Shown one piece after another: positions 3,615 through 57,722 of a stretch of 64,000 bases of DNA; within the stretch, counting starts at the first letter, position 1; each line of letters starts with the position of its first letter. The DNA is taken from IMG/VR virus record IMGVR_UViG_3300049846_001316, positions 1 to 64,000 of that record. The stretch is one strand, 5' to 3'. This DNA comes from a virus. Under the pieces are notes generated by a model. It was not told the origin of the DNA. It searched no databases and was given only the letters and a program-made list of their open reading frames with translations. The position numbers and the translations under genes were made by a program.

Positions 3615-4342
3615 TGCCCAGAACACTCGTGTGGTTCAGCGCCGGCGCCGCATCGGCCGTCGCAGCCAAGCTCACCCTCGCGGAGACTCCGGACGCCGTG
3701 GTGGCGTACGTGAACCCCGGAAGTGAGCACCCCGACAACGAGCGGTTCCTCGACGACTGCGAGCAGTGGTTCGATCACGAGATCGTCCGCCTGCGGTCCG
3801 AGAAGTACCGCGACACGTGGCAGGTCTACGAGGAGCGTCGGTTCCTCGTCGGCCCGACCGGCGCACTCTGCACCGCCGAGCTCAAGAAGCGAGTGCGGTT
3901 CGCGTTCGAGCGTCCCGACGACATCCAGGTCTTCGGGTACACGAGCGAGGAAGTGCACCGCGCCGAGCGGTTCCGGGAGCAGAACCCCGGCGTCACGCTG
4001 GTGACCCCGCTCGTCGACCGGCTGCTCAAGAAGTCCGACTGCCTCGCCATCGTGCGGAGAGCCGGGATCGAGCTGCCCGAGATGTACAAGCTCGGTTACC
4101 ACAACAACAACTGCATCGGGTGCGTCAAGGGTGGCATCGGCTACTGGAACAAGATCCGTCGAGACTTCCCCGAGACGTTCGAGCGGATGGCCAAGCTCGA
4201 GCGCGAGATCGACCACGCTCTGCTCAAGGACTCGAACGGACCAATCTGGCTCGACGAGCTTGACCCGTCCCGCGGCACCATGGACGACTTGCGCATCGAC
4301 TGCTCGTTGCTGTGCCAGATCGCAGAGGACGAGATCCGTTGA
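3614..4342 (+). CDS. PAPS-reductase-like PP-loop protein
   Basis: A 242-residue protein whose N-terminus VWFSAGAASAVAAKL is the degenerate PP-loop typical of phage phosphoadenosine-phosphosulfate reductase-like proteins. It is followed by AYVNPGSEHPDNERF and later CIGCVKGG, a Cys pair seen in this family. The family belongs to the adenine nucleotide alpha hydrolase superfamily. Members make sulfite, install sulfur (DndC) or modify nucleobases. It sits directly before a cytosine methyltransferase, so a part in DNA modification is plausible, but assimilatory reductase activity cannot be excluded. The start is fixed by the TGATG overlap. Confidence 0.8.
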   Translation: MPRTLVWFSAGAASAVAAKLTLAETPDAVVAYVNPGSEHPDNERFLDDCEQWFDHEIVRLRSEKYRDTWQVYEERRFLVGPTGALCTAELKKRVRFAFERPDDIQVFGYTSEEVHRAERFREQNPGVTLVTPLVDRLLKKSDCLAIVRRAGIELPEMYKLGYHNNNCIGCVKGGIGYWNKIRRDFPETFERMAKLEREIDHALLKDSNGPIWLDELDPSRGTMDDLRIDCSLLCQIAEDEIR

Positions 4343-5712
4343 ACCTCGACATCTTCGCCGGAATCGGCGGCTGGGACATGGGCGCCGTGCTCGCAGAGAT
4401 CGACCCCCTCATCGGGATCGAGTTCGACAGCGCGCCGTGCCGTACTCGGGCTGCGGCCGAGCATCACACCATCCGTGCCGACGTGGCGCAGTACCGCGTC
4501 CCGCACCCGATCTTCGTGCTGACCGGCTCCCCGCCGTGTCAGGCGTTCTCGAAGGCCGGCAAGCGCAAGGGCATCCAAGACGTCAACCAAGTCTTCCAGA
4601 TCGTTCGGGACATCGAGAAGGGTCGCAAGACCAAGAACGTCGCCTGGAACGACGAGCGGAGTGCGCTCGTGCTCGAGCCACTCCGCTACATCTCGGAGGG
4701 GCACGCCACGTACGTCGCGCTCGAGCAAGTGCCGGAAGTGCTCCCGCTGTGGGACGCGTTCGCCATCGTGCTCCGCAAGTGGGGCTACGACGTGGTGACG
4801 GGGCTCTTGAACGCCGCCGACTACGGAGTGCCACAGACCCGGACCCGAGCGATCCTCTTGGCGCGCAAGCGCGAGCTCGGGCTCGGGCCACTCAGCCTGC
4901 CGGAGCCGACGCACGCCCGCGAGCCCCGCGCCGACTTCTTCGGCTCACGGGAGAAGTGGGTCAGCATGGCGGAGGCCCTCGGGTGGCTCGGTGAAGACGC
5001 ACCGGCCCGGACTCTGTGCGGGCACCGGCAGCCCCGGTGGCTGTACAACGACCCGGACGGCTCTCGTGGCCGCATCGTCGGAGTCGGATTCCCGCGCAAG
5101 GCCGACGACAACGGCCCTGCCGACGAGGACGGCTACCGGGCGCGCGACTGGCGCTCACCGGACCAGCCCGCGTTCACCCTCACCGAGAAGGCGCGGAGCT
5201 GGCGAGTCAACACCGGCCGGGACTGGAAGGCGGGCGGCTCCCGTGAGGACGCGCAGACCGTCCCGCTGGACGAGCCCGCCCCGACTCTGCCTGCGGCGAA
5301 GGGCGGTGCGTCGATCTGGAAGCTCGAAGAGATCCAGGCGCACGGCGCGTCGCGCGCCGAGGACGAGCCCGCCATGACCATCACCGCGAGCGCCGACAAC
5401 GGCAACTTCAAGTGGACTGAGGACCGGCCCGCCACCACCGTGGCGTGCGACCCGAGACTCTGGCCACCCGGCCACAAGGTCAACCAGAAGGACCGCGACC
5501 GTCACGGAGACGAAGCCGACGACATCTACGGCGACCGCGCCGGCCGCAACTCGTACAGCCTGCTCGTGGAAGAAGCTCTGGTACTCCAGAGCTTCCCGTG
5601 GAACTACCCCGTGCAGGGCACCAAGACCGAGAAGTTCCGAGGGATCGGCAACGCCATCCCGCCACTGCTCGCGGCGCACTGTCTCGCCGCCGTCCAAGGG
5701 AGAACCCTGTGA
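4339..5712 (+). CDS. C5-cytosine DNA methyltransferase
   Basis: A 457-residue enzyme that would transfer a methyl group from S-adenosylmethionine to C5 of cytosine. The motifs are in canonical order: motif I DIFAGIGGWDMG at residues 4-15; motif IV GSPPCQAFSKAG with catalytic C67; a motif VI variant, EQV instead of ENV (residues about 130-132). Motif VIII is QTRTRAILLAR and motif X is GIGNAIPPLL at the end. The target-recognition region between VIII and IX/X is large. The TTG at 4339, in a TTGA overlap with the previous gene, puts motif I at the N-terminus as usual. No cognate restriction enzyme is visible, so self-protection is the likely role. Confidence 0.92.
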   Translation: MNLDIFAGIGGWDMGAVLAEIDPLIGIEFDSAPCRTRAAAEHHTIRADVAQYRVPHPIFVLTGSPPCQAFSKAGKRKGIQDVNQVFQIVRDIEKGRKTKNVAWNDERSALVLEPLRYISEGHATYVALEQVPEVLPLWDAFAIVLRKWGYDVVTGLLNAADYGVPQTRTRAILLARKRELGLGPLSLPEPTHAREPRADFFGSREKWVSMAEALGWLGEDAPARTLCGHRQPRWLYNDPDGSRGRIVGVGFPRKADDNGPADEDGYRARDWRSPDQPAFTLTEKARSWRVNTGRDWKAGGSREDAQTVPLDEPAPTLPAAKGGASIWKLEEIQAHGASRAEDEPAMTITASADNGNFKWTEDRPATTVACDPRLWPPGHKVNQKDRDRHGDEADDIYGDRAGRNSYSLLVEEALVLQSFPWNYPVQGTKTEKFRGIGNAIPPLLAAHCLAAVQGRTL

Positions 5713-49780: not shown

Positions 49781-49794
49781 CTGAGGCCCCTCAG
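49781..49794. terminator. Small hairpin between convergent operons
   Basis: CTGAG GCCC CTCAG lies across the end of the leftward operon, 11 bases after the rightward stop. Five pairs with a four-base loop; a weak bidirectional terminator at best. Confidence 0.35.
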
Positions 49795-50891
49795 GCGCTC
49801 TGAGCGGCCAGATCGGTGTAGGCGTCGATCCAGTCGCTCCAACGCTGCCTCACGTCAAGCTGGGCCACGGAGACGAGCCCTTCGGCGCCGATCCGCTCCC
49901 GCTCCGCGGGGTCCGCGAGGCGCTCTAGGTGCTTTGTCCAATCTGCCGGTTTCCGAGCGAGCAGCCCGAGGCCATGCTCCCGGTGGAGCCATTCGTACTC
50001 CGGGGTGGCCTGCGCCACGAACGGGATGCCCGAGGCGGCGTACTCCATCCCCTTGATCGAGCTCTTGGCCAGGTTGAAGGGCGAGTTCGACAGCGGCACG
50101 AGTCCGATGTTGATGCCCTCGAACAACTCGGGGTACCGCTCGATGCCGCACATGGGCTTTGTGAAGACCCGCGCGCCACCCGGCAGCTTCATCGCCGCCT
50201 CGATCGAAGTGGCGGTCGGCCGGGGGTCGTGCCCTCCGTGGTAGAGACGTGCTCTCGGGTGACGAGCCAAGAACTGCTTCACCGCCCACCCGATCGTTTC
50301 GAGATCTCCGGACCGGAATCCAGTTGCTCCGACCCAGCCCAAGTGCGGCTCGCCGGCGAGCGGCTGTGGTGTCCACCGCTCCAAGTCGATGGCGTTGCGC
50401 ACCACCGCGATCGGCTTGTCCGGGAACTTCTGCTGGTACCGCTCCTTCAAGTACGGAGTGCTCACTGTGATGGCGCTTGAGGCAGCGATGTTGCGCTGAT
50501 AGAACTCCCGATTCGATCTCGGGTTGTGGTGCGGGTGAGTCGCTTTCCAGGCGTAGTTCCGCGGGTCGAGTCCGGGATACCAGTCGTCGATGTCTTGGAT
50601 GACGATTTGCCCGTACGCTCGAGCGCGGAGGAGCCCCTTGACTCCATCTTCCATCCATCGTTGGATGACGATGACGTCGAACCCGTCGAACTCGTTGCCT
50701 TCCCAGTCAACGAGCACGAGTTCACCACTCGGCCGCTGGTTCACCGCACCGAACTGCCGGGTGTAGATCCCGTTCAACCGAAGTTGCCGGGACGGGAGTC
50801 CGATGCGGTACCAGCCGGCTCCGCCCAGGGTGGGGTGGCCTTCTGCGTCTCGCGTGTTGGAGTAGTCGACGGTCGCGAAGCCGATCTTCAC
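49791..50891 (-). CDS. Glycosyltransferase, GT-B fold (group 1-like)
   Basis: A 366-residue protein. The N-terminal half has an acceptor-type Rossmann region (DVIVIQRWMEDGV, IVIQDIDDWYPG). The C-terminal half has the donor-site pattern (HLGWVGATGFRSGD, GLVPLSNSPFN, KGMEYAASGIPFVAQ) of group 1 glycosyltransferases. It transfers a sugar from a nucleotide donor; the acceptor could be virion protein, DNA or host glycan. Start GTG 50891 forms a GTGA with the upstream small gene; a TTG at 50906 is less likely. Confidence 0.82.
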   Translation of the reverse strand: MKIGFATVDYSNTRDAEGHPTLGGAGWYRIGLPSRQLRLNGIYTRQFGAVNQRPSGELVLVDWEGNEFDGFDVIVIQRWMEDGVKGLLRARAYGQIVIQDIDDWYPGLDPRNYAWKATHPHHNPRSNREFYQRNIAASSAITVSTPYLKERYQQKFPDKPIAVVRNAIDLERWTPQPLAGEPHLGWVGATGFRSGDLETIGWAVKQFLARHPRARLYHGGHDPRPTATSIEAAMKLPGGARVFTKPMCGIERYPELFEGINIGLVPLSNSPFNLAKSSIKGMEYAASGIPFVAQATPEYEWLHREHGLGLLARKPADWTKHLERLADPAERERIGAEGLVSVAQLDVRQRWSDWIDAYTDLAAQSA

Positions 50892-51010: not shown

Positions 51011-51180
51011 CAGTACGTATGGATCTTCACGAACTTGCCGCCCATGTGCGAGCTGCCGTCCTGACAGAGGCGGACTTCACGGATCTCGCGCATCGCGGTC
51101 GGGGAGACTCCCACCATGACCTGCGCGCCGTCGTGCTCGTTGATGTCCATGAGCGCCTGGATCAACTCGTCGATGTTCAC
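51010..51180 (-). CDS. Small hypothetical protein
   Basis: A 56-residue alpha-beta protein (MNIDELIQALMDINEHDG, VRLCQDGS). It resembles in size and pattern the 53-residue protein at 61051, both starting with a helix ending in a Gly/Asp turn followed by strands. GTG start in a GTGA overlap, stop in a TGATG. Confidence 0.58.
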   Translation of the reverse strand: MNIDELIQALMDINEHDGAQVMVGVSPTAMREIREVRLCQDGSSHMGGKFVKIHTY

Positions 51181-51890
51181 CGCTTCATTCCCCCATACTT
51201 CTTGTTGAATCGAACAAGGTCGTCGTACTTGGTCTGGTGGAGCTCTGGTACCTGTTGGGCAGAGTATTCGCCCATGTGGTCGACCGGAAGTCCGGTCACG
51301 ATGGCGGGCTTGGCGCCGGCGATCTCGAGTTGACGCACGAGGTCGTCGTCTCCGCACCACCACTCGAACTGCGGGTCCACGAAGGGCACTCCGCGCGTGG
51401 TGTGCCACTCCGCGGCGAACATGAAGGCCCAGCCGCAGATCCCGTGGTTGCGGTAGGTCCCGCGCACGAGATCAGGCCCGTGGTGCACCGAGTGCGCCGA
51501 CAGCGGAAGTCGGTAGTCCGGGCACACGATCCCGCGATCCGGGTCAGCTCGCAGCTCCTCTGCCAGAGGAGCGAGGAACTCCTGAGTCGGAATCGTGATG
51601 TCGTCGTTGAGGAACGCGAGATTGATCTCCTCGTCCGGGTACGACTCCAGCAGCATCGACCAGGCGAAGTTCCACATCCCGTAGAGGTCGTGATGTAGGT
51701 GCGCCGGAGGATGCCAGACTTCGAGCTTCGGGTCGCGCTCGTCCTCGGGCAGCCAATGGCGGAGGCGCTGATCGTCGGTGTCATCGAGAACGATGACGAG
51801 ATCGTGCTCGTCCAGATAGCGCAGGTCCACGAGGAGTTGGCGGAACGTGTCCGGGACGAACCGAGTCGGGATGGCAGCGATTGTTTTCAC
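51177..51890 (-). CDS. Glycosyltransferase-like protein, GT-A type
   Basis: A 237-residue protein with a GT2-like arrangement: IAAIPTRF at the N-terminus, a first strand LVIVLDD, then INLAFLNDDITIP holding the metal-binding acidic motif. Later RNHGICGWAFMFAAEW and WWCGDDDLVRQLEIAG give the acceptor/second acidic site. It is one of three glycosyltransferases in this block. Acceptor unknown. GTG start in a GTGA overlap. Confidence 0.75.
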   Translation of the reverse strand: MKTIAAIPTRFVPDTFRQLLVDLRYLDEHDLVIVLDDTDDQRLRHWLPEDERDPKLEVWHPPAHLHHDLYGMWNFAWSMLLESYPDEEINLAFLNDDITIPTQEFLAPLAEELRADPDRGIVCPDYRLPLSAHSVHHGPDLVRGTYRNHGICGWAFMFAAEWHTTRGVPFVDPQFEWWCGDDDLVRQLEIAGAKPAIVTGLPVDHMGEYSAQQVPELHQTKYDDLVRFNKKYGGMKR

Positions 51891-52345: not shown

Positions 52346-52614
52346 GCTTCCTCGCACTCCCCTTCCAGGTTCTCCTCGTCCTCGCAGGTGCAGATGCTCT
52401 GGTTGTGAGTCAAGCACCACTGGAACGGGTAGGCCATCTTCTTCTCGGGTTCGGGGAGCACGCGCAGGCGCATGATCTCGACGGGATTCTCCTCGTCGGT
52501 CAGCATGTCCTCGATGTCACCCCAGTCGTTCTCGCCGTAGCAGGCGAAGAACGTGTACTCACCGATGTCCTCGCCATCGGCGCGCATGACGATGTGGCTC
52601 GGGATCTTCCTCAT
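52342..52614 (-). CDS. Small acidic protein
   Basis: A 90-residue acidic protein with a beta-type N-terminal half (IVMRADGEDIGEYTFFACYG) and a Cys triad CLTHNQSICTC near the end. Overlaps both neighbours (ATGA and GTGA). No family recognised. Confidence 0.62.
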   Translation of the reverse strand: MRKIPSHIVMRADGEDIGEYTFFACYGENDWGDIEDMLTDEENPVEIMRLRVLPEPEKKMAYPFQWCLTHNQSICTCEDEENLEGECEEA

Positions 52615-53387
52615 CGGTAGTACGTCCTGTCCGCGTCGCGCTCCTCGACTCCGACGAGGGGCTCGACGTGGGTGCCCACGACGTCGTGCCGCACCCACGT
52701 CTGGCCGAATCCGAACTCCTGCGCGTCGGCCTGGAAGCACGGATCGTCGGTCGAGCCGGACTGCAAGTCCCAACGCCACCGCATCTTCCGGAACACGTCT
52801 CGACGCACCATCATGAACCCGGCGGTCGTCCAGTGCTCCTGGAGATCCATGTCCCGGTACTCCGGGTTCGGGACCTTCGGCCCGGAGTGCGCGTAGTTCG
52901 GCACGTGCCCGCAGACGATCCCGTGGTCGACCTCGAGGAGTCGGTTCACCGAGTCGGCCGGCACGCTGGTGTCGGTGTCGATGAACAGGATGTGCGAGAT
53001 GCTGAAGTCCGACTGCGCGTACTCGTGGGCGAGGTTGCGTCCGGCGCAGATGCGGTGCAGCCGACTCCGGCCGTCGAACTCCTGGATCAGATCATCGACC
53101 CGGAACTGCCACGTCACCACGTCCCACGCGGGGTCGGCCGCAGCCTTGACCTCGCACAGACGATCTTCGAGCGCGTCGTACGGCTCCATGCCGCGGCCGT
53201 CGACCTCGGCGGCGAGGAAGTGGGTCAGGCGGATGCCCGCGTCCTCGGCACGCATCAGGCGTTCCTCGGCGCGGTCGAGCCACGCCAGCTCACCGACGCC
53301 GTTGCACTTCCACGGCGCGCACGTGGTCGCAACGAGCACGTGCGGTGTCTCAGGCGGTGGCGTTCGTACGATGTCCACGAGGGTCAT
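52611..53387 (-). CDS. Glycosyltransferase, GT-A type (GT2-like)
   Basis: A 258-residue protein. HVLVATTCAPWKC starts the first strand; ISHILFIDTDTSVP (about residues 132-145) supplies the DxD metal site; TTAGFMMVRRDVFRKM and STDDPCFQADAQEFG are the acceptor-side and second acidic motifs usual in GT2 proteins. It probably modifies phage or host surface, or modified DNA bases; the acceptor is unknown. AGGA-type ribosome site before the ATG. Confidence 0.78.
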   Translation of the reverse strand: MTLVDIVRTPPPETPHVLVATTCAPWKCNGVGELAWLDRAEERLMRAEDAGIRLTHFLAAEVDGRGMEPYDALEDRLCEVKAAADPAWDVVTWQFRVDDLIQEFDGRSRLHRICAGRNLAHEYAQSDFSISHILFIDTDTSVPADSVNRLLEVDHGIVCGHVPNYAHSGPKVPNPEYRDMDLQEHWTTAGFMMVRRDVFRKMRWRWDLQSGSTDDPCFQADAQEFGFGQTWVRHDVVGTHVEPLVGVEERDADRTYYR

Positions 53388-53398
53388 GAGGGTCCTTC

Positions 53399-54010
53399 CT
53401 AGGTCCAGAGATTGAACTCGGGGTTGGCTTGGTTTCTATCGAGCCACCGGAGCAGCTTGGGGAGATTCGTGTCGGGGCCGAAGCCAAGGTAGGTGCCGTC
53501 CGCGGTCGCGCACCCCAGCGAGTCGGCGTACTTGAGGCGGCTGAACGAGTTGACCCGGCCCATGTGGACCGGCATCCCCCGCCGCACGCCCTCGGTGATC
53601 AGTGCCCGAGCATCGGGACTGAGCTTCCATTCGGTCGAGCCGCCAATGAAGAGGGTGTGCGCCTCGTCCCACGGGATCGACTCGATGGTGGCACCGTCTT
53701 GCAGAACGATCGCGCGTGGCCACGCGTGGAGGTAGTCGCACCAGTCCCGCCACGACGCGAGTGTCGCTTCCCAGTCGTACAGGACGTCAGGGACAGCCAC
53801 GAAGAGACAGCCCGCCATGAACGGGCGATACGCCTCGAGAGCAGAAAGATACGCGTCCTCGTCGAAGCCCGCGTACGCACCGTTGTCGAGTCCCCACTTC
53901 CACCCGTGGCGGACCTTGTTACGGGTCGCAGGGGTGACGAACGCACCGAGTGTGCCTTCGGTGATGAGGCCCTTGACCACATCGTTATGCGGAGTCACGA
54001 GGTACAGCAC
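53399..54010 (-). CDS. dpdA: DpdA-type DNA transglycosylase (7-deazaguanine insertion)
   Basis: A 203-residue TIM-barrel-like protein of the tRNA-guanine-transglycosylase superfamily, phage DpdA type. Visible motifs: WGLDNGAY (residues 39-46), FVAVPDVLYD (70-79), IVLQDGAT (101-108), LFIGGSTEWKL (120-130), VHMGRVNSFSRLKYA (148-162) and TADGTYLGFGPD (169-180), with D171 a candidate catalytic Asp. DpdA proteins replace guanine in DNA by preQ0 or a derivative. GTG 54010 keeps the first strand LYLVTPHN; it overlaps the QueF-like gene by 26 bases. Recognition is by motif memory, not a search. Confidence 0.78.
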   Translation of the reverse strand: MLYLVTPHNDVVKGLITEGTLGAFVTPATRNKVRHGWKWGLDNGAYAGFDEDAYLSALEAYRPFMAGCLFVAVPDVLYDWEATLASWRDWCDYLHAWPRAIVLQDGATIESIPWDEAHTLFIGGSTEWKLSPDARALITEGVRRGMPVHMGRVNSFSRLKYADSLGCATADGTYLGFGPDTNLPKLLRWLDRNQANPEFNLWT

Positions 54011-54263
54011 ACTCGATCCCCATGCCGGCGGTTGACCACTCGGTCGTGATGTCCGCGTGCGGGTAGTAGTTGTGGAGCTCGGCGGTGAGTCGCTCGTGGG
54101 TGATCCTGCGAGCAGCAAACTCGTCGAGGTGGGTGCGGAGATCATGGAACTCAATCTCTCCGTCGTCCGGGTTGTACGTGAGGGTGACCGTGCCGTAGTC
54201 CGTCTCGTCTCGGAAGGGGCACAGGTGAACGATGGGTGCGGTCACACGGACTTGCAGGTTCAT
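53985..54263 (-). CDS. queF: Minimal QueF-family T-fold protein
   Basis: A 92-residue protein that lines up with the catalytic core of QueF. HLCPFRDETDYGTVTLTY holds C15 and D22 in the same seven-residue spacing as the active-site Cys and Asp of QueF. E38 and the H56-E57 pair (RITHERL) match the substrate-binding Glu and the His-Glu motif. QueF reduces preQ0 to preQ1. The QueF NADPH motif (ESKSLK type) is replaced here by EFHDLR, nearer to the archaeal amidinotransferase QueF-L, so the product could be preQ1 or an archaeosine-type base. ATGA overlap upstream. Very short for the family. Confidence 0.75.
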   Translation of the reverse strand: MNLQVRVTAPIVHLCPFRDETDYGTVTLTYNPDDGEIEFHDLRTHLDEFAARRITHERLTAELHNYYPHADITTEWSTAGMGIECAVPRDSA

Positions 54264-54799
54264 GCGACTGCCCGCCGGCGAAGTCGGAACGGAGCGATGA
54301 CGATGAGCGCCGGGAGGATCATGAGGGTCTTGAGCCAGAACTGGCCCCACAGAAAGTCGAGCGAGTGGAAGGCGAGCCAGAGGAACACCACCGAGTCGAC
54401 CAGGCTCCCGACCGTGTTCGAGAGCACCACGCCCCACGTCCACTTGCCTCGCTCCGCGAGCGGCGTGTACACCGCCCAGTCGAGTCCTTCCCCGAGCAGG
54501 AACGCGCACCCCGACGCCCACGCCAGAGACGGGGCAACGAGGTAGGACAGCGCGGCGCCGACCACGATGGCAGCGGCGATCTTCCACTTGCCGAGGGCGA
54601 GCTGGGCGCCGTCCCGCAGACTGAACGACAGACCGACGAACAGGACCCCACTCGGGGCCGTCCACGGGCCGATCGTGACGGTGTGCGGACCGCCGGGGAA
54701 CGGCACGGTGCCCCAGTGCTGGATGGCGTAGTTGGCGAGGAAGATGCACCCGATGAATCCGGCGAGGCAGATCCACCCGAGCTTGCGGTTGAGGGTCAT
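54260..54799 (-). CDS. yhhQ: YhhQ/VUT-family queuosine-precursor transporter
   Basis: A 179-residue membrane protein with about five to six segments. The segment CAFLLGEGLDWAVYTPL (about residues 97-113) followed by SNTVGSLVDSVVFLWLAF (about 126-143) matches the hallmark of the YhhQ/VUT (DUF165) family, which imports preQ0 and preQ1. It is somewhat shorter than cellular YhhQ. AGGAGA precedes the ATG, and the stop overlaps the QueF-like gene (ATGA). It would raise the pool of precursor for DpdA. Confidence 0.85.
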   Translation of the reverse strand: MTLNRKLGWICLAGFIGCIFLANYAIQHWGTVPFPGGPHTVTIGPWTAPSGVLFVGLSFSLRDGAQLALGKWKIAAAIVVGAALSYLVAPSLAWASGCAFLLGEGLDWAVYTPLAERGKWTWGVVLSNTVGSLVDSVVFLWLAFHSLDFLWGQFWLKTLMILPALIVIAPFRLRRRAVA

Positions 54800-54806
54800 G
54801 GTTCTC

Positions 54807-55388
54807 CTATTGCTTCCAGGCGAGGGCCTGCACGTCCCCGCGGTGAAGTGTGTTGATCTCGTGACGAGCGAAGTTGTAGAGGAGCGTGTCCTCGAGTGCC
54901 TTGGGGTCGACGTTGGCGTAGTACTCCACTCCGTGCGGAACGAACGTCTCTGATCCCCGTGGGCCGGGGTCATCCGTGAGGAACTTGTCCGTGTACTCCT
55001 CGGGCTCCATGTTGTGCCCGTCCACGGCTGAGTGCGGAGCCCGCGGGTCGCACGCCGCGGTCATGATCGCGATGCCGTCGACCTTGAGGAACTTCGCCAT
55101 GTTGGCGACGATGTTGCGCCACTCGGGAGTGTGCTCGAAGACCTCGAGGCACAGCACCACGTCGAACGTGAGATCGCGCGCCGTCGTCCAAGTGGCAGCG
55201 TTGCCCACGTGGTCGACTCCGGGACCGGGCACGATGTCGACGCCCATGTACTCGGCGTCGGGGAACAGATCCCGGACACCGCCGTTGATGTCGAGGGAAC
55301 CGAACTCGAGCACGCTGAGTCCCTTCCACGACTTGAGGTTGCACCGCTTCACAGCGGCCTCCACGAACCATCGACACTCCGCGTGCAT
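54807..55388 (-). CDS. SAM-dependent methyltransferase (class I)
   Basis: A 193-residue protein. Motif I SVLEFGSLDINGG (about residues 25-37), acidic motif II YMGVDIVPG, and motif IV FDVVLCLEVFEHTPEW (about 75-90) are those of Methyltransf_11-type enzymes. Small molecules or sugars are the usual targets. It sits just upstream of the deazaguanine trio, so methylation of a modified base or of a sugar are both possible. TGATG overlap with the nuclease gene. Confidence 0.8.
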   Translation of the reverse strand: MHAECRWFVEAAVKRCNLKSWKGLSVLEFGSLDINGGVRDLFPDAEYMGVDIVPGPGVDHVGNAATWTTARDLTFDVVLCLEVFEHTPEWRNIVANMAKFLKVDGIAIMTAACDPRAPHSAVDGHNMEPEEYTDKFLTDDPGPRGSETFVPHGVEYYANVDPKALEDTLLYNFARHEINTLHRGDVQALAWKQ

Positions 55389-56808: not shown

Positions 56809-57540
56809 TCATGCTCCGTTTTCCGTGAAGAAGGTTGGGCGTGCCAACCGGGACCGTGCTGCATCAGCGTAGCCGGAATCGACCTCGATGCCAATGCCTC
56901 TTCGACCCAAGTTCATCGCCGCGACGACGGTGGAACCGGACCCGGCGAAGGGGTCCACGACCACTTCGCCCCGCTCTGTGCTCATCTCCACGAGGCGCTC
57001 GATCAGGGCGACCGGCTTCTCGGTGGGATGGATGTGCTGCTTGCTCCCGAGCTTGTCGACGTGGATGATGGCGGAGCGGCGGTATGGGACTTCGCGGCGC
57101 CCCTTCTTGAAATACATGATCAGCTCGTGGCCGCAGCCCCAGTTGCCGTCGAGGTCGCCCATGCCGGGGATGCCCTTGTCCCACACCAACAGCATCTTGT
57201 ACAAGAAGCCGTAGTCTTGCATCAGGGGGACGAGGGCCGACTCCCACTCGTGGAGGCAGTCCCATTTGGTGAAGACGTAGAGGTCGCACTGCTCCCGAGT
57301 CTTCGGCAGGAGCAGTTGCATGGCCTCCCCGAACAGCGCCAGGGCGCCGGCCATGTCGCCGTCGTTCTCGATCTCCTTCACGAACCGCTTGCCCTGCGGA
57401 GTCGTGGCTCGGAAGCTCTTGAACGCCACGCCGTAGGGCGGGTCCGTGATGATGCACGGAATGTTGTCAGGGAGGGTCGGGATCAGATCCCGGCAATCCC
57501 CGTTGAGGATCTCTGAGCGACCCACGTTGACGCGCTTCAC
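56809..57540 (-). CDS. DNA amino-methyltransferase (N6-adenine or N4-cytosine)
   Basis: A 243-residue protein with DPPYG at residues 33-37 (catalytic motif IV) and VVVDPFAGSGSTVVAA near the end (motif I). The DPPY-before-FxGxG order is the beta class. VYVFTKWDC and the Gly/His-rich part between may form the target site. GTG 57540 forms a GTGA with the upstream membrane-protein gene; two further GTG codons upstream are in frame. Likely protects phage DNA from restriction. Confidence 0.88.
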   Translation of the reverse strand: MKRVNVGRSEILNGDCRDLIPTLPDNIPCIITDPPYGVAFKSFRATTPQGKRFVKEIENDGDMAGALALFGEAMQLLLPKTREQCDLYVFTKWDCLHEWESALVPLMQDYGFLYKMLLVWDKGIPGMGDLDGNWGCGHELIMYFKKGRREVPYRRSAIIHVDKLGSKQHIHPTEKPVALIERLVEMSTERGEVVVDPFAGSGSTVVAAMNLGRRGIGIEVDSGYADAARSRLARPTFFTENGA

Positions 57541-57722
57541 GCCCACGCCCACTCGATCCCCTTCCAGATGATGCCGCCGATCAGCACCGCCAGCAGGATC
57601 GCGAGCAGCGCGATGACGACCATCGTGGAGTTGACGGCGATCTTCATTGCCGTGGACATCGGCTTCTTCGGCTCGGGGACGACCATCTCGTACGTCTCCC
57701 GGTCGAATGGGTTATCGGACAT
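57537..57722 (-). CDS. Small single-pass membrane protein
   Basis: A 61-residue protein with a polar N-terminal half ending KKPMSTAMKIAV and one C-terminal membrane segment (about residues 32-55, MVVIALLAILLAVLIGGIIW). It overlaps the resolvase gene by 11 bases and the methyltransferase by four. Function unknown; a holin-like or envelope role is possible. Confidence 0.62.
   Translation of the reverse strand: MSDNPFDRETYEMVVPEPKKPMSTAMKIAVNSTMVVIALLAILLAVLIGGIIWKGIEWAWA

Follow-up and report, generated by a model that had tools for sequence, protein, structure and literature searches.

A YhhQ, QueF-like and short DpdA-like gene cassette in a putative actinobacterial phage and its probable role in salvage-based 7-deazaguanine modification of DNA

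Phages with DpdA but without preQ0 synthesis genes have been described, and the host or an exogenous supply has been proposed as their source of preQ0 (Hutinet 2019, PMC6884629). The same study noted YhhQ in some phages, uncorrelated with any phage group, and left it as an open question whether the phage proteins have QueF or QueF-L activity. It also reported that the DNA of phage Orion, which has DpdA alone, is unmodified in M. smegmatis, a host having no preQ0 pathway. The haloviruses HCTV-1 and HCTV-16 are reported to have YhhQ as well as a preQ0 pathway (PMC8651126), and YhhQ is found in about 9% of the bacterial dpd islands (PMC11888242).

Here we describe a locus in virus record IMGVR_UViG_3300049846_001316 (78,169 bp). 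The stretch analysed, referred to as the window, corresponds to positions 1-64000 of this record (64,000 nucleotides) and the last 14 kb were analysed as L006. No close relatives of the window DNA were found among GenBank phages. The best relatives of the terminase and the major capsid protein belong to Rhodococcus, Gordonia and Tsukamurella phages of 75-84 kb, and the record is therefore probably near full length, with an actinobacterium as the presumed host. An earlier note, made from the letters of the window, had reported three adjacent, overlapping and co-directional genes. This matches exactly the arrangement on the minus strand, where three ORFs fill positions 53399-54799:

54260-54799, minus strand: YhhQ/VUT (COG1738)-family transporter, 179 aa, ATG at 54799 with AGGAG upstream (Pfam PF02592)
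54260-54263, minus strand: ATGA overlap of the YhhQ stop and the QueF-like start (from the sequence)
53985-54263, minus strand: QueF-like T-fold protein, 92 aa (PF14489, TIGR03139, AF2 model, residue table)
53985-54010, minus strand: 26-nt overlap of the QueF-like end and the DpdA-like start (from the sequence)
53399-54010, minus strand: short DpdA-like protein of the TGT superfamily, 203 aa, GTG at 54010 (phrog_15826, AF2 model)

The overlaps are operon-like, and the ATGA sequence likely couples translation of the YhhQ and QueF-like genes.

Like the DpdA-only phages (group 3 in PMC6884629, i.e. Salmonella phage 7-11 and Mycobacterium phage Orion), the window has a DpdA-like gene without detectable preQ0 synthesis genes; however, the paper defining that group describes no YhhQ-QueF-DpdA cassette, and Orion is absent from the matches to the window DpdA-like protein. 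Arthrobacter phage Aoka (gp38-gp40) carries these three genes with order and direction unchanged; its QueF-like protein is 49% identical and no synthesis gene was found, although its genome is 36.7 kb compared to 78 kb here and gp38 and gp39 are annotated as membrane protein and hypothetical protein, respectively. Streptococcus phage Dp-1, which has dPreQ1 in its DNA, also clusters QueF and DpdA with a Q-precursor transporter, but it adds QueC, QueD, QueE and FolE, its transporter is QueT, and its QueF is a canonical reductase (ESKSLK, PRGG). Escherichia phage CAjan and other Seurat-like phages (dPreQ0 in DNA) share with the window DpdA and a YhhQ-family "putative preQ0 transporter", while they differ in having the full synthesis pathway, a long DpdA (306 aa) and no QueF annotated in the cluster. 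Bacterial dpd islands likewise encode a TGT-superfamily enzyme that inserts preQ0 into DNA (S. Montevideo DpdA, 7ui4), some of them with YhhQ, but the DpdB, DpdC (dADG) and restriction operon of the islands (PMC11888242) are all missing from the window cassette. The literature searched does not describe the YhhQ-QueF-DpdA cassette or a reductase-less QueF-like clade; this search was incomplete and an earlier description is possible. The idea that phages import preQ0 dates from earlier work (Hutinet 2019); what is new here is the minimal three-gene combination and the reductase-less QueF-like clade.

We consider it probable that the cassette is that of an actinobacterial tailed phage and serves as a minimal salvage-type 7-deazaguanine DNA modification system. 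The YhhQ-type transporter would import preQ0 into the infected cell, and the short DpdA-like enzyme would replace guanine in the phage DNA by preQ0, with a covalent Asp intermediate like that of TGT. Cys15 of the QueF-like protein would then attack the nitrile to form a thioimide, and ammonia would complete the reaction once the base is in DNA, most likely giving 2'-deoxyarchaeosine (dG+), such that the modified DNA would be hidden from restriction enzymes. That all of these parts combine into a biosynthesis-free three-gene route to archaeosine in the DNA of a bacterial virus (imported preQ0, a miniature DpdA and a phage QueF-L yielding dG+) is a possible extension, though less likely than not. 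If true, the phage QueF-L would be the first tunnelling-fold amidinotransferase shown to act on DNA. Counting against the salvage proposal are that Orion DNA is unmodified in M. smegmatis, that ammonia turnover by Pyrobaculum QueF-L is reported only on preQ0-tRNA, and that the short DpdA-like protein has no significant sequence match to the DpdAs of 9g, CAjan or Dp-1. The cassette itself is genuine and coherent, and it can be tested in a cultured phage.

The order YhhQ, QueF-like and DpdA is found in the window, in Aoka, in the IMG/VR loci L015, L018, L021, L031, L041 and L056, and on a Nocardia farcinica contig (L096), while L027 has QueF-like and DpdA genes without YhhQ upstream. A YhhQ gene is present at 54 viral DpdA loci, which is most of the loci examined, and it is nearly always directly adjacent to DpdA. 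With an alignment of ten QueF-like sequences as query, a scan of 2.9 million viral contigs gave six loci, every one of them (6/6) beside a short DpdA and already in the DpdA set; a two-sequence QueF-like query gave no matches in viral and genome contigs. The association of the three genes is beyond chance. In the DpdA tree, where many nodes are weakly supported, the QueF-carrying loci require six changes versus 10.7 in shuffles. Most QueF carriers fall in one clade, and since the window, L058, L041 and L056 are placed elsewhere the QueF-DpdA association appears to have arisen or been retained more than once. Gene order, protein families and recurrence thus bear out the earlier view that the transporter, the QueF-family protein and the TGT-superfamily protein form one cassette.

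The window transporter matches Pfam Vut_1 (PF02592; 2.3e-8) with 35 bits, above the curated cut-off of 27.2, and scores below the equivalog cut-offs of TIGR00697 (5e-7, 29.8 bits; cut-off 50.95) and NF008406 (26.3 bits; cut-off 252). Comparison of the transporter family with the "putative preQ0 transporter" of CAjan (gp41) using hhalign gave 99.5%, and on these grounds it is a probable preQ0 importer. The same role could apply to the transporter gene left unannotated beside DpdA in many actinobacterial phages, cultured ones included.

The suggestion in the earlier note that the precursor is imported rather than made agrees with our data in that preQ0-synthesis genes went undetected in the 78-kb record and, in other phages, the DpdA-like family has links to preQ0 chemistry. 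Specifically, family searches of the 78-kb record gave no match to QueC, PTPS/QueD, FolE or canonical TGT, and phage QueC, QueD, QueE and FolE queries had no match in this record or in the complete Aoka genome. Among full-length representatives, at least two synthesis genes were present at 0 of 41 loci with YhhQ compared to 5 of 23 without (Fisher p 0.004), with p 0.02-0.04 by other ways of counting. The test was based on deduplicated viral loci and genes within about 5 kb of DpdA, such that more distant genes could be missed. L058, with QueC and YhhQ, is the single partial exception. YhhQ and preQ0-synthesis genes hence tend to exclude each other, which supports that import replaces synthesis; if true, actinobacterial phages would commonly rely on a YhhQ-DpdA pair for "import" in place of encoding preQ0 synthesis themselves.

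As regards host supply, QueC was detected above cut-off in three of the 121 genomes of the N. farcinica family and in 7/20 genomes carrying a related DpdA, and most such hosts therefore probably could not make preQ0. The low count in the host family agrees with the condition named in the earlier note, namely that the system would need preQ0 from host or environment. Given that QueC is rare in the sampled host family, modification of the phage DNA would, if the proposal is true, depend on a nutrient from neighbours. The N. farcinica genome holding L096 has its own QueC, so import may not always be needed and this strain might supply preQ0; among the 20 genomes there was no correlation between host QueC and lack of phage YhhQ. 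We also observed that in Cellulomonas sp. KH9 (G002, the genome of L097) a YhhQ-like gene is located some 2 kb from QueC on contig C2 (near 309-312 kb), perhaps as a separate 7-deazapurine cluster, with another YhhQ-like match on a different contig.

The 203-aa protein had been recognised as DpdA from its motifs. This assignment has support from predicted fold, motif order, genomic context and GenBank naming, but not from sequence profiles, where there is no significant match to TGT or to validated DpdAs. Thus, no Pfam family was matched, Pfam TGT included, and profile-profile and HMM comparisons of the short DpdA with the DpdAs of 9g, CAjan and Dp-1 gave nothing significant. The sole bridge by sequence profile is a weak one (E 0.006-0.007) to Sonali gp87, annotated as queuine tRNA-ribosyltransferase. 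The protein matches phrog_15826, of unknown function (E 8e-52), and has relatives in 24 GenBank phage records, many of which are named "DpdA-like tRNA-guanine transglycosylase". An AlphaFold (AF2) model built from 42 relatives (pLDDT 95.4, pTM 0.90) gave 73 PDB matches below 1e-3 with Foldseek, and among the matches listed most are TGTs (E about 2e-4), with S. Montevideo DpdA (7ui4) at E 7e-4. The two best E-values belong to other TIM barrels of the ThiG (thiazole-synthase) type, and hence the fold alone is not specific for TGT/DpdA. The protein resembles TGT/DpdA in the order of motifs (DNGx, PDxxxD, IGG, HxGRVNS and GCxSxDG), and Asp42, Asp75 and Asp171 are invariant across 45 sequences. By motif, not by superposition, we infer that Asp171 serves as the nucleophile and corresponds to TGT Asp280 (for the role of Asp280 see PMC3660597).

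The genomic context ties this family strongly to 7-deazaguanine genes: it adjoins QueC/QueD/QueE in L032 (phage Sonali), L037, L039, L050 and L076, and in L058 the short DpdA lies beside YhhQ, QueC and, between YhhQ and DpdA, a canonical QueF (ETKSLK, RGG). The ThiG-like top matches and the missing profile link to validated DpdA would also fit another TIM-barrel enzyme using a 7-deazaguanine or purine, with a cassette that, for example, scavenges or detoxifies preQ0-like metabolites; we regard this as improbable in view of the TGTs, DpdA 7ui4 included, that predominate among the matches listed below E 1e-3, the motif order, and the linkage to YhhQ, QueF and QueC/QueD/QueE. Equally hard to favour is that the cassette acts on RNA, with the short TGT-like enzyme placing salvaged 7-deazaguanine in host or phage tRNA and thereby aiding translation. 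While the superfamily includes tRNA modifiers and GenBank relatives bear the name tRNA-guanine transglycosylase, the protein is about 200 aa, lacks conserved zinc-site cysteines and a TGT family match, and its family accompanies phage sets of QueC/QueD/QueE that resemble the ones in phages whose DNA is modified; moreover, none of QueA, QueG and QueH of the later Q pathway was among the families matched in the general family search. We therefore place the 203-aa protein, with the qualification that the fold is predicted, as DpdA-like.

Related short DpdAs are also present in other arrangements. In L054 (3-8819) as well as in L035, L055 and L074 the short DpdA domain is located within very long ORFs; that of L054 (2,939 aa) has InPase and Kinase-PolyVal domains, a make-up of injected "polyvalent" phage proteins, and DpdA might be delivered together with the phage DNA in proteins of this type. 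The relative in Erythrobacter phage ZS04 is annotated as a DarB-like antirestriction protein. L050 (1-3960) has three DpdA-family ORFs, two QueC-like ORFs lying among or next to these, and Arthrobacter phage Sonali (L002, 3510-7606) has a short DpdA (gp81) and the longer TGT/DpdA-like gp87 beside QueC, which suggests two transglycosylases with different targets.

In the profile search proposed in the earlier note for the three proteins, the transporter thus exceeded its Pfam cut-off and the 203-aa protein had no significant match to validated DpdAs, while the QueF-like protein scored slightly under the Pfam cut-off (PF14489; E 9e-5, 23 bits, cut-off 27.3) and gave E 6.5e-7 with TIGR03139. PF14489 is matched by all ten QueF-like members (best 5.9e-22), and a profile of these ten retrieves structures of both QueF and QueF-L, at about 1e-12 to 3e-10. 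The window protein has the catalytic residues Cys15, Asp22, His56 and Glu57; Cys15 and Asp22 are invariant, and the Cys, Asp, His and Glu are kept in 9/9 of the aligned short QueF-like proteins. Both the QueF motif E[SL]K[SA]hK and the C-terminal RGG element are absent in all nine, the window having EFHDLR and STAGM; His replaces the motif Lys, and A-[GSD]-[ML] replaces Arg-Gly-Gly with Ala at the position of the Arg. In V. cholerae QueF, the position aligned with this Arg carries the R262L mutation (entry 3s19). The AF2 model (pLDDT 94.9) has the archaeal QueF-L of Pyrobaculum calidifontis (5jyx/5k0p) as its best PDB match (5jyx, E 3.6e-6, TMq 0.89), and B. subtilis QueF matched more weakly (E 6.7e-4). 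With respect to membership as an archaeosine synthase QueF-L, the closest structural relative of the predicted structure and the lost reductase motifs thus both agree. The similarity to archaeal QueF-L extends to size, fold, the catalytic Cys and the loss of the NADPH motifs, but the archaeal enzyme acts on preQ0-tRNA, shares about 20% identity with the window protein, and is without the QueF-motif Glu that the latter keeps (E38).

Both QueF and QueF-L use Cys and Asp to reach a thioimide, described as a stable intermediate, and they differ in the second nucleophile, which is hydride from NADPH or ammonia, respectively; Pyrobaculum QueF-L showed ammonia turnover only on preQ0-tRNA (PMC5485725). 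The earlier view that a QueF-family enzyme changes the nitrile is compatible with the kept catalytic residues, but with both NADPH-reductase motifs lost, reduction to preQ1 is probably not what is meant. Since these motifs are lost and the predicted structure is closest to archaeal QueF-L, NADPH reduction appears unlikely, ammonia would be the likeliest second nucleophile, and dG+ formed after insertion would be the likeliest of the known outcomes, a choice to which we give somewhat less than an even chance. Its main rival is dPreQ1, with the same salvage cassette and a QueF-like protein that reduces preQ0 to preQ1 before or after insertion. The tested QueF-family proteins of Dp-1 (gp01) and HVTV-1 (gp82), viruses having dPreQ1, had been predicted to be QueF-L and proved to be reductases yielding dPreQ1 (PMC6884629). 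Together with the canonical QueF of L058 and the retained Cys, Asp, His and Glu this keeps the alternative in play, although as an unlikely one: Dp-1 gp01 and HVTV-1 gp82 retain E[SL]KSLK and PRGG, while the short QueF-like proteins have neither the motif Lys nor the Arg-Gly-Gly with the Arg mutated in 3s19, and the predicted fold is nearer to QueF-L than to QueF.

Other possible products are dADG or something new. Hydrolysis of the DNA-bound nitrile to the amide (dADG) by the QueF-like protein could proceed from the thioimide in principle, and dADG is present in phages 7-11 and MED16, which have DpdA without synthesis genes (PMC6884629, PMC8306585). However, no QueF-like gene has been reported for these two phages and the reported stability of the thioimides (PMC5485725) also speaks against it, so we assign this outcome a low probability. 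The cassette, for which we prefer salvage-type modification of DNA, is a small test bed for the question raised in PMC6884629, i.e. whether a phage QueF-family protein is a reductase or an amidotransferase and whether it acts before or after insertion.

Encoded on the strand of the cassette and flanking it are glycosyltransferase-like genes (49791-50891, 51177-51890 and 52611-53387) and a SAM methyltransferase gene (54807-55388). We rejected these as cassette parts because they are not conserved at the other cassette loci; this phage may nevertheless have glycosylated or methylated base derivatives. The window also encodes a C5-cytosine methylase and an N4/N6 methylase (4339-5712 and 56809-57552), and the phage seems to have several independent DNA-modification routes. 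Genes for PAPS-reductase-like proteins (N-type ATP pyrophosphatases) are present near short DpdA in L004 (4212-5129), L026, L033, L051, L052, L110 and L115, several directly adjoining, and the window has one at 3629-4342, far from the cassette; these may reflect a possible extra chemistry step, or chance. Finally, the last 14 kb of the record encode an AEP-TOTE primase domain together with AAA and CobT-like VWA domains, and a phage integrase family match was obtained in a protein set taken mostly from this part, so the phage may be temperate.
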